Virus record (IMG/VR): IMGVR_UViG_3300031841_001100
Coordinates: 1 to 26,284 of that record
Source of the DNA: a virus
DNA: 26,284 nt
Direction: 5' to 3' (one strand)
This document shows positions 1,241-4,962 of this stretch, in pieces. Position 1 is the first letter of the stretch. Each line of letters opens with the position of its first letter. The notes under the pieces were generated by a model. The model saw nothing but the letters and a program-made list of their open reading frames with translations. It did not search any database and was not told the origin of the DNA. Both the position numbers and the translations under genes were made by a program.

Positions 1241-1360
1241 TCAGATGAAAAGGTCAAGAGTAAGAGCACCAAGGCCAGCCATCAAGAGAAGAAGACTGAC
1301 TGATGGAATTGTGACACAGGTCGCAGCAACAAAGGCGACACATCCAAAGAACATTAACAT
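1241..1360 (-). CDS. 39-aa hydrophobic membrane peptide
   Basis: A 39-residue frame that directly follows the TAA of the gene upstream (TAA then ATG with no spacer) and ends 5 nt before the next start. It encodes MLMFFGCVAFVAATCVTIP and then a second hydrophobic stretch rich in Leu/Ala/Gly, with one Asp near the C-terminus. Almost every residue is non-polar, so one or two membrane spans are expected. Tight packing between two genes on the same strand is the main evidence that it is expressed. Role unknown; phage micro-proteins of this kind can act on the host inner membrane. Confidence 0.6.
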   Translation of the reverse strand: MLMFFGCVAFVAATCVTIPSVSLLLLMAGLGALTLDLFI

Positions 1361-1555: not shown

Positions 1556-1860
1556 GTCGGGGTGGCCAGTCGGTGGCTTGTGAGAGTATGGAATGAAACA
1601 AGGCAAAAAGAGAGAAGCCTGTAACATTCCGTAACAAATGGCGTCCGTGGGCCGGATGTGTGCCGCTTGTTGAGTACATATTGCCGCGGATTGCTGGGTT
1701 GGCAAGGTCGTGTTGACAATTCGCAACACTCACGCAACATTTCGGCAAACGGGCACAGATAGATAGTAGATAGAGATTAAATATAAACAATTGCACCGCA
1801 CAGTTTGTATAAACAACTGCTGCCCGCGTTACTACACGTTACATTGCGTTACATTTATAC
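1556..1860 (-). promoter_or_regulatory. Non-coding control region with phased repeats and dyads
   Basis: No convincing gene is present in 1556-2058. This half carries short ordered repeats: gttac at 1828-1832, 1838-1842 and 1848-1852, exactly 10 bp apart; gtaac at 1621-1625 and 1631-1635, again 10 bp apart and in the other orientation; a dyad gtgttg-8-caacac at 1710-1729; gcaac at 1723 and 1734; and a 13-bp near-repeat tataaacaa(c/t)tgc at 1782-1794 and 1808-1820 (one mismatch, 26 bp apart). AT-rich -10-like boxes (TATATT, TTTAAT on the minus strand near 1776-1785) lie just downstream of the phased repeats. The layout suits promoter/operator control of the left-end genes; direct evidence of a promoter is lacking. 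Confidence 0.4.
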
Positions 1861-2058
1861 TTACAACGGCATAGGGGGCGGCCATAAATCTAAAACAGCG
1901 GGGGGTATTGGGGGGAGTCGGGCCGATCGCTACAGGCGTAAGGGGTTCGCATTTTTGTGTCAAAATTTACGAGTGACGCCTAGAAGGCCCCGTAGAGGCC
2001 CTCCGAGGAGCTTTAGGTGTACTGACACCTGAAGTGAGTCGGAGGGGTCTTGTAGGGG
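1861..2058. other. Structured G/C-tract intergenic region
   Basis: About 200 nt with no gene that I can support. It holds paired G6 tracts on the plus strand (1900-1905 and 1910-1915 separated by tatt), further G runs nearby at 1874-1878 and 1918-1922, and the nested inverted repeat at 1999-2046 described separately. Read on the minus strand, the G tracts become a C6-AATA-C6-GCTGTT element that is nearly repeated in opposite orientation at 3164-3182. Confidence 0.45.
1999..2046 (-). terminator. Nested hairpin after the thyX cassette
   Basis: A perfect 8-bp outer stem (ccctccga 1999-2006 with tcggaggg 2039-2046) encloses a perfect 6-bp inner stem (aggtgt 2015-2020 with acacct 2025-2030, loop actg). 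It begins 13 nt past the stop codon of the 58-residue protein gene in the direction of transcription. There is no U tract, so it may act as an RNA processing or stabilising structure, or as a Rho-independent-like pause, and not as a classical terminator. Confidence 0.4.
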
Positions 2059-2235
2059 CTAGAACACGTCTCTGGACGTGATCTGTGCGTCAGCTACGGA
2101 GTACGGAGCAGAAGGACGACGCCGAAGACGATTCATTGCTTCTTCATAGAAGACCGAATCTGTCTTACCACTGCGTTCTAATGCTGTCTTTACAGCCATC
2201 CATTTTTCGTACTGCTCATGTGTCATCTCTTCCAT
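2059..2235 (-). CDS. Hypothetical protein, 58 aa, coupled to thyX
   Basis: A 58-residue frame whose ATG (2235-2233) lies 13 nt inside the end of thyX; a second in-frame ATG at residue 4 (2226-2224) is also possible. It begins MEEMTHEQYEKWMAVKTALE and is strongly helical and charged, with an RLRRRPS basic patch near residue 37. The overlap with thyX implies co-expression. No family recognised. Ends in TAG at 2061-2059, just before the nested hairpin. Confidence 0.65.
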   Translation of the reverse strand: MEEMTHEQYEKWMAVKTALERSGKTDSVFYEEAMNRLRRRPSAPYSVADAQITSRDVF

Positions 2236-2864
2236 TTAAGTGCCCTCGCTATGAGAGGTAGTTGTTGGATGAAAATGGTCTTAGCCGAATCAGCAATCTG
2301 TTGATGTTCGAGCTGCGTACCGTTAGCAGTACGAAGATCGATGTAATGAATCCAAGAACGAAGCGTGCCGTTCATGTAGAGCCGCGTTGGCGCGTTCAGC
2401 GGCAACACCGCCCTAGCACATTCCTTGGCAACCCCTGACGACACCATCTCGTGGTAGAGGTCTTCTGCCTCTGCGTAGTGCTGTGCTATGCGTCGGTAGA
2501 AGGACTGGGTTTGTTCTGGAGTCAGATCATCAACAGAGTTCTGTCGGTTCTTTGTGTCTTGTCTACGCAGGTGAGGAAGATCAATACCCCCAAGCTCATC
2601 CATGCGTGCATACCGTTGGCTGAACTCTTGAAAGCTAAAGCTACGGTGACGCAGTATTTGAGCTGAGATTGATCGAGTAGTGTTGATTTCTAACACCATG
2701 TTAGCCATCTCAAAGATGGACCAATGACCGTGCTTAATACAATATCCAAGCAGCTTCTCCACGGTCTGGTGGTTCTCTTGGTTTTGCGGATTACTTACTC
2801 TGGCACAGTAAGCAATCATTTCTTCTGCGTCTGGGTTAATAGAAACAAGACGACAAGTAGTCAT
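2223..2864 (-). CDS. thyX: Flavin-dependent thymidylate synthase ThyX
   Basis: This 213-residue protein should convert dUMP to dTMP using methylenetetrahydrofolate with FAD and NADPH, supplying thymidylate for phage DNA. It carries the ThyX signature RHR-x7-S as RHRSFSFQEFSQR at about residues 72-84, preceded by the typical HxSxxE-like segment (HWSIFEM, about 47-53). It closes with the expected helix containing RLYMNGTLRSWIHYIDLR and a QLEHQQIA segment in place of the common AQxEIR. Length matches the family (about 210-250). It follows the structured island downstream of the terminase and overlaps the 58-residue gene by 13 nt. A thyX at this spot separates the packaging genes from the left-end small genes. 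Confidence 0.93.
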   Translation of the reverse strand: MTTCRLVSINPDAEEMIAYCARVSNPQNQENHQTVEKLLGYCIKHGHWSIFEMANMVLEINTTRSISAQILRHRSFSFQEFSQRYARMDELGGIDLPHLRRQDTKNRQNSVDDLTPEQTQSFYRRIAQHYAEAEDLYHEMVSSGVAKECARAVLPLNAPTRLYMNGTLRSWIHYIDLRTANGTQLEHQQIADSAKTIFIQQLPLIARALKWKR

Positions 2865-3228: not shown

Positions 3229-4962
3229 TTAAACCCAGTGGTGGATTACGTTTTGGTCGGTCTGTAGGTTGTCGTAATTTGCGCCCAAAACAAGGCGATC
3301 TGTGGCCGTCTGAGGGTGTTCTTGGAACGCTCGGACCATCTTGGCCCAGTCGTCCCGCTTTGCTTGAATGAGAGCCTCTTTTGCGGAGATGGCAAGGATG
3401 TCTTGGAAGTACTTGACCCCAAGGGCAAGCGCGTCTACCCGGTCATCGTGTTTAACGGCCCCCTTCTCACGACACATCCTGGTAAGCTGGTACATGAGCA
3501 TACGGGGAAGCCGTTCTTCTGGACTTAGGTCTGGATTGCTGGTATAGTCCCACTCAATCAAACGTTGGTCAATCACGAGACGATGCTGGTTAAGCACCGG
3601 TTCCAGTGTGTCGATGATGCGGTCTTCCTTCCGCGTGGTAGCACGCATCTCTTCGAAGTCGATCGGTGTCTTCATTTCGGCTGCGTGTCGCTTCATCAGC
3701 TCCATGACAGCACCATCACCGAAGTTCGATTCGATCAAGCAGAGGGTAGCTTTGTATTTCTTTGCTCGTCTAAGAATCTCACAGAGGGTCTTGTCCGAGT
3801 AACCGTCTTGGTTAGCAAAGATGTCACGGACAAAGATGAAGCCGTTAAGCTGACTCATAATCACGGCAACGGTTTCGTCTTTTCCGCGTCCCGAGGGGTC
3901 CACCGCAACAATAGTTTGCCCGTAGGGGACAAAGTCCGATGTAGTCTTAGGCCGGTGCCATCTATCGCCAGGGAGAGCAACAGCAGGCAGGTTAAGCAAA
4001 GTGTCCTGATCGGAGCCCCAGACCAAGTCTGACGGACCCTTTTCCATGTCAAGCGGTAATACTGAAAAGTCGCTGAGCTTGAGAGGAAACTTGAGGGCGT
4101 CCGAAAGGGACGTGTCCAGCATGAACTGCAACATAAAGTTGCTACGCGACATACTGGTTTCCCTTTCCAGTAGGTTAATCTCAGAAAAGCGCGTATCTGT
4201 GGGCGTCCACTTAACAGTTTCGTGACCCTTCTTTTCAATGTCCCTAACAAGTTGCGGCGCAAGTACTTCGTCGTATCCAGTCAGATCTTTGGGGTAACGT
4301 GCTGGCCAGACAAAGGGTTTATAGTTACGTTCCCTCAGTGTACGATAAATTGTAAAAGTAGTTTGTGGCGTACCGAGAAACACGATACGACTGTCTTCTT
4401 TTGGGGTAAGGACGGACTCGCCCTCAGTAACCAACTGCAAAAGTTTTTCACGCATGAAGTCGGTAGCAGAGTTAGCGGGAACCTCAACGTCATCGAACAC
4501 AATAAGGTCGGCTCGACTGCCGGTGATTTGACCCGTAATTCCGACACTTTTAACAGACGGCGCCTGAGCGGGTCTACAGCCCGCAACGTCAAACGAGACA
4601 CGCGACCATCGTTGGTCATCGTCCACAGGGCGAAAATGAGCCAACCAATCGAACTCAAGAATACATTTTTGACAGAAGATTGTAAAGTCATCAGCTCTTT
4701 GTTTAGACGCAGAAATAACAAGGATCTTCTTATCACGGTCGTTCCATAGCGTCCAGAGAACGAAGGCAGCAGCGATCCAGCTTTTTCCGAGTCCCCGAAA
4801 TGCTTGGATTTGGAGTCGCTTGGGTCCATTTTGGAGGTAGTTAGCGATAGCGATCTGTGCTCTTGTTGGAGGAGGCAGGTCTAGCGACTTCCATACAAGA
4901 GAAAGAAATAAGGGAAAACTGGCCTCCAGACGGGCCTCTGGGGTGCCTATTTTATGCGCCAT
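3229..4962 (-). CDS. terL: Terminase large subunit (T7 gp19-like)
   Basis: This is the packaging motor ATPase and nuclease that drives DNA into the prohead and cuts concatemers. At 577 residues it is close to T7 gp19 (586). The N-terminal ATPase shows a Walker A-like FRGLGKSW at about 55-62, Walker B LIVFDDVE at 153-160 and the coupling motif FLGTPQ at 195-200. The C-terminal RNase H-like nuclease shows VAVDPSGRG (D355), LIES (E411) and KHDDRVDALA (D506, D507, D510), a complete acidic set. The gene follows an intrinsic terminator and a 56-nt gap, unlike the tightly coupled genes before it, so it may have its own transcript or depend on readthrough. No frameshift seen. Confidence 0.95.
   Translation of the reverse strand: MAHKIGTPEARLEASFPLFLSLVWKSLDLPPPTRAQIAIANYLQNGPKRLQIQAFRGLGKSWIAAAFVLWTLWNDRDKKILVISASKQRADDFTIFCQKCILEFDWLAHFRPVDDDQRWSRVSFDVAGCRPAQAPSVKSVGITGQITGSRADLIVFDDVEVPANSATDFMREKLLQLVTEGESVLTPKEDSRIVFLGTPQTTFTIYRTLRERNYKPFVWPARYPKDLTGYDEVLAPQLVRDIEKKGHETVKWTPTDTRFSEINLLERETSMSRSNFMLQFMLDTSLSDALKFPLKLSDFSVLPLDMEKGPSDLVWGSDQDTLLNLPAVALPGDRWHRPKTTSDFVPYGQTIVAVDPSGRGKDETVAVIMSQLNGFIFVRDIFANQDGYSDKTLCEILRRAKKYKATLCLIESNFGDGAVMELMKRHAAEMKTPIDFEEMRATTRKEDRIIDTLEPVLNQHRLVIDQRLIEWDYTSNPDLSPEERLPRMLMYQLTRMCREKGAVKHDDRVDALALGVKYFQDILAISAKEALIQAKRDDWAKMVRAFQEHPQTATDRLVLGANYDNLQTDQNVIHHWV

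Follow-up and report, generated by a model that had tools for sequence, protein, structure and literature searches.

A predicted direct terminal repeat with phased GTTAC repeats at the putative concatemer junction of a T7-like cyanopodovirus

The boundary between late and early genes in IMG/VR record IMGVR_UViG_3300031841_001100 (the window, i.e., the whole analysed stretch of 26,284 bases) very probably represents the concatemer junction of a T7-like cyanopodovirus, in which a predicted direct terminal repeat (DTR) is followed by an early leader. The phased GTTAC array located here would be a lineage-specific repeat, any protein-binding role being secondary. The original prediction described an unexplained control region and proposed an early repressor/activator, a replication initiator or a packaging protein to bind it. 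Its view of a non-coding control region holds, and among the three suggestions packaging is the best supported, considering the predicted DTR and the early leader.

Genome context and predicted terminal repeat

The window covers part of a T7-like cyanopodovirus genome. Its main genes all lie on the minus strand and encode tail and internal virion proteins, tail fibres, terminase and thymidylate synthase ThyX, followed by small ORFs. The best-ranked matches of the terminase are from cyanopodoviruses (58–63 % identity), followed by a Mesorhizobium phage (48 %). Both ends of the window are matched at 99.9–100 % by contig IMGVR 3300032087_002731 (27,412 bases), and joining the two yields a circular assembly of ~43.9 kb. 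Past the left end of the window, this contig encodes a T7-type RNA polymerase, a primase-helicase and endonuclease I; the polymerase, the phage's own, matches RNA_pol PF00940. Terminase kinship and T7-type RNA polymerase both indicate membership in the cyanopodoviruses (Autographiviridae). A small hydrophobic ORF (~35 aa; 1254–1360, minus strand), whose ATG overlaps the stop codon of the preceding early gene, possibly codes for a small membrane protein. The features of the junction and its surroundings are as follows (L086 and L319 are the relatives aligned over this region; HLR1 is a cyanobacterial regulator site treated below):

888–1235: early gene matching Kyano_Gp96 (cyanophage family)
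1558–1760, minus strand: leader of ~200 bp from the DTR to the first early gene, from alignments with L086 and L319
1621–1635, plus strand: GTAAC pair (1621, 1631) with a 10-bp step in the leader; also an imperfect HLR1 with 2 mismatches
1760–1755, minus strand: ATCTGT directly after the DTR, matching the T7 pause signal ATCTGTT
1761–1939, minus strand: predicted DTR of 179 bp, from the edge rule of four isolates (marks found in 38 relatives)
1782–1820, minus strand: two 13-bp boxes GCARTTGTTTATA, 26 bp apart, kept in L319; candidate −10 elements TATACA (1811–1806) and TATATT (1785–1780)
1828–1852, plus strand: three GTTAC (1828, 1838, 1848) with 10-bp steps, located within the predicted DTR
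1838–1855, plus strand: GTTACATTGCGTTACATT, exact copy of HLR1 (18/18, no mismatch to the consensus)
1940–1965, minus strand: conserved left-edge signal, TTTTGACA (1965–1958) plus 18 nt, with the DTR beginning directly after it; same 26-nt spacing in Syn5, P-SSP7, S-SBP1 and S-TIP37
1980–2066, minus strand: hairpin just ahead of the DTR (−35.5 kcal/mol, z −4.0)
2059–2235, minus strand: last small gene ahead of the junction (58 aa)
2223–2864, minus strand: ThyX, after the terminase
3229–4962, minus strand: terminase (late block)

For cyanopodovirus records, both ends of each linear genome were compared for exact terminal repeats, which were present in four isolate records: Syn5 (237 bp), P-SSP7 (206 bp), S-SBP1 (180 bp) and S-TIP37 (150 bp). 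The repeat of P-SSP7 is backed by experimental end mapping, its length being that obtained by sequencing of the genome ends (PMC3350473), and those of Syn5, S-SBP1 and S-TIP37 are taken from the genome records. In all four isolates the repeat begins exactly 26 nt past the start of TTTTGRCA. At its right edge it directly abuts ATCTGT in Syn5, S-SBP1 and S-TIP37, and ACCTGT in P-SSP7. Phage T7, fetched as a check, has a 160-bp repeat immediately followed by ATCTGTT (positions 161–167). This heptamer, present at the T7 concatemer junction, serves T7 RNA polymerase as class II pause/termination signal (PMC11617373); Syn5 polymerase likewise gave terminated products on a template whose T7 stop mapped to ATCTGTT (PMC9624206). 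Among 65 relatives with enough downstream sequence, 36 carry both marks on the terminase strand, as compared to 2 on the opposite strand and 1 in shuffled sequence; an exact pair is missing in about half of the relatives. Across relatives, predicted repeat lengths range from 135 to 297 bp, with 178 bp each for L086 and L319; for the cultured relatives S-RIP1 and NATL1A-7, whose records do not display the ends, 254 and 175 bp are predicted.

In the window, the marks at 1965–1958 and 1760–1755 predict a DTR running from 1939 down to 1761, which is expected to occupy both genome ends and to have been merged into a single copy during assembly. The circular assembly of ~43.9 kb fits the expectation for such a collapsed repeat. 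The junction is located between the late (terminase) block and the small early ORFs that precede the RNA polymerase. Since the edge marks place the DTR at 1761–1939, the GTTAC triple and the 13-bp boxes would both lie inside it. By analogy to T7, replicated genomes would be joined head to tail via the terminal repeat, the phage RNA polymerase would pause at ATCTGT at the right edge of the repeat, and the terminase would cut at the repeat edges, with the repeat being duplicated to provide one copy per genome end.

The window shares with the T7 concatemer junction the terminase and terminal repeat where late meets early genes, ATCTGT adjoining the repeat on its right, a phage-owned RNA polymerase and a comparable repeat length (160 bp in T7, predicted 179 bp here). 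In contrast to T7, the left edge (TTTTGRCA plus 18 nt) is common to cyanopodoviruses and resembles that of T7 only partially, and the window has candidate host promoters inside the repeat as well as repeats of other sequence. With the DTRs of P-SSP7 and Syn5 it has in common both edge signals, their spacing and the position after the terminase, whereas length, internal sequence and the GTTAC array differ.

The ATG at 1557 is probably the start of the first early gene, given that both L086 and L319 show a 2-bp indel just upstream of it. On the other side of the DTR, the hairpin at 1980–2066, one arm of which (CTCCTCGGAGGGCC) is kept in about 25 relatives, possibly acts as a terminator or belongs to the packaging signal. 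Elements TTATTGAGAATC and GATTCTCAATAA, resembling Fur boxes at first sight, occur as direct or inverted copies in and just after the terminal repeats of L343, L362, L376 and Syn5; they are absent from the window.

Phased repeats, boxes and their turnover

The originally described GTTAC copies (1828, 1838, 1848) and GTAAC copies (1621, 1631) were confirmed, and a half-degenerate further pair is located at about 1354–1368. GTTAC-N5-GTTAC occurs three times in the window, as compared to 0.02 in dinucleotide shuffles. The pattern is not as frequent in shuffled sequence: in 500 shuffles of the 245-bp region, no pentamer triple with a 10-bp step appeared, and triples at any step of 6–30 bp are likewise rare there (p = 0.004). 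The GTAAC/GTAAT pair at 571–585 lies inside a coding ORF, as had been claimed; its conservation adds nothing, because this stretch is 93 % identical to L086 throughout.

The two near-identical 13-bp boxes with 26-bp spacing were also confirmed (TATAAACAATTGC at 1782–1794 and TATAAACAACTGC at 1808–1820; chance p = 0.006). Their reading as a phage promoter recurring throughout the genome was rejected, the window holding these two copies alone. The GTGTTG/CAACAC dyad at 1710–1729 is present, but not significant (1 observed vs 1.7 expected, p = 0.72), and was dismissed as a chance occurrence; in L086 one of its arms is altered without a compensating change. A Syn5-type phage promoter (ATTGGGCACCCGTAA) was discarded, as no match was obtained at ≤3 mismatches, and a scan for sigma-70 consensus promoters detected no site in the region.

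On whether the repeats are lost in close relatives that keep the flanks, as asked by the original prediction, the two relatives give different answers. L086 (89 % DNA identity around the region) retains all repeats, with the array identical at 28 of 28 bases vs 82 % identity over the whole DTR; an intact array against this background could reflect function. L319, with a 94 % identical terminase, shares the whole region at about 75–80 %; it lacks two of the three array copies and one member of the leader pair, the boxes still being 92 % identical. Since L319 dropped two of three copies yet kept the boxes, the array appears to be under no strong constraint, and its turnover is apparently faster than that of boxes and edges.

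Of 31 other predicted terminal repeats, 5 contain unrelated phased pentamer triples (0.4 expected), as compared to 0–2 of 26–32 segments around those repeats; near-duplicates and simple sequence were excluded from these counts, which are small. It thus seems that terminal-repeat DNA in this group recurrently carries short phased repeats, whose sequence varies. In T7, the short phased repeats SRL and SRR are associated with the terminal repeat, and a role in terminal-repeat processing has been suggested for these end repeats; the array of the window differs from them in sequence and step and is located inside rather than beside the repeat.

A packaging role of the array itself would mean recognition by the phage terminase or another packaging factor during terminal-repeat processing. 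The position inside the predicted terminal repeat and the phased short repeats in other terminal repeats of the group agree with such a role; however, relatives vary in sequence and step of the repeats, and L319 shows a decayed array despite its 94 % identical terminase, which renders this explanation unlikely. Most likely, the GTTAC array represents a short phased repeat specific to its lineage, any protein-binding role being secondary: the terminal-repeat part of the junction most likely follows the known plan, with the GTTAC repeats as a short-lived local feature.

Candidate proteins binding the array

The array overlaps an exact match to the high-light response element HLR1 (consensus KTTACAWWNNKTTACAWW), the site of the OmpR-type light regulator RpaB (PMC13421787). 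At 1838–1855 two KTTACAWW are separated by 2 nt, in agreement with the definition of HLR1. Among the relatives sharing the region, conservation is incomplete: the site is kept in L086 and has 3 mismatches in L319. The 151 genomes of Cyanobiaceae, the likely host family, harbour 24 exact HLR1 sites. Of the 23 sites inspected, 18 immediately precede hli genes, and two host copies (GTTACATTGCTTTACATA) deviate from the phage copy at 2 of 18 positions. Judged by these occurrences, HLR1 is a genuine host element, and the hosts say nothing on the working of the phage copy. In L405 and L406, Cyanobiaceae genomes of 68–69 % G+C, an exact reversed HLR1 lies 8–9 bp before a conserved gene for a protein of 60 aa (MNDPLSLSREFSTAVHSRAI...), which is a possible RpaB target other than hli.

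If the array were a working HLR1, RpaB or the related RpaA could activate or repress a host-polymerase promoter firing from the terminal repeat into the early genes. Beyond the exact match and its similarity to host sites that mostly precede hli genes, this is favoured by the candidate −10 boxes, which follow the array at distances of 17 and 43 bp, and by the possible occurrence of HLR1 sites on either strand (PMC6331805). Moreover, HLR1-like sites (≤2 mismatches, opposite strand) were observed in the 1.0–2.6 kb after the terminase of other relatives (10 vs 1.4 in shuffles). However, 5 out of 300 permuted motifs reach an equally good score in the relatives, HLR1-like motifs with a 3-nt spacer yield nearly as many sites (both strands together), and those sites of relatives that can be placed are located after the DTR, none inside. 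As a positionally conserved general feature of cyanopodovirus early regions, HLR1 was therefore rejected: it is enriched over shuffles and unconvincing against permuted motifs and other spacings. A control with the reversed pattern was confounded, because TTACATT reads the same backwards.

Further points argue against a working HLR1. L319 has one intact half-site left, and the exact motif is absent from 25 isolate genomes. Host copies of the motif mostly point in the same direction as the gene, whereas the phage copy is reversed. Published zones relative to the start site are −66 to −45 for activating and −38 to +23 for repressing sites; the phage site, at an inferred −39 to −56 with start sites guessed from the −10-like boxes, straddles both. 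In comparison to cyanobacterial HLR1, the phage site has the exact consensus, the 10-bp step and the half-sites GTTACATT in common; in contrast, it lies in phage DNA, has a third half-site, is reversed and is not kept in L319. Finally, intergenic arrays of this kind are widespread among many unrelated viruses: triple GTTACA arrays (10-bp steps, at least 3 copies) were found in 62 IMG/VR contigs (L161–L222) vs 1 for a GATTC control, in 58 of the 62 between ORFs, in unrelated viruses of very different G+C content. Regulation by RpaB or RpaA via the array is accordingly considered a rather doubtful, tentative option.

The same arrays constitute the main argument for an early repressor or replication initiator encoded by the phage: since they are common in unrelated viruses, proteins reading GTTACA arrays would exist in phage biology. 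On the other hand, no common neighbour gene, and hence no shared partner, emerged among the arrays examined, and the tested early genes gave no match to a DNA-binding regulator. T7-like phages are not known to need an early repressor. Binding by such a phage protein is thus very unlikely.

The preferred reading remains that of a lineage-specific repeat within a predicted DTR. If the array nevertheless binds a protein, the host OmpR-type regulator RpaB would be the leading candidate. That a lytic cyanophage carries HLR1 in its terminal repeat and thereby ties early transcription to the photosynthetic redox state of the host via RpaB is regarded as improbable; among the papers searched, no report of a direct molecular link between host light sensing and phage gene expression was found.

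Implications for cyanopodoviruses

The shared edge marks suggest that the pause-and-cut signal of T7 is common to the cyanopodovirus group, too. Genome ends are usually lost in circular assemblies; by means of the edge rule (TTTTGRCA plus 18 nt on one side, ATCTGT on the other), the ends of many uncultured cyanopodovirus genomes would become placeable on the basis of sequence only. The HLR1 match, if functional, would constitute a direct molecular link from host light sensing to phage gene expression.
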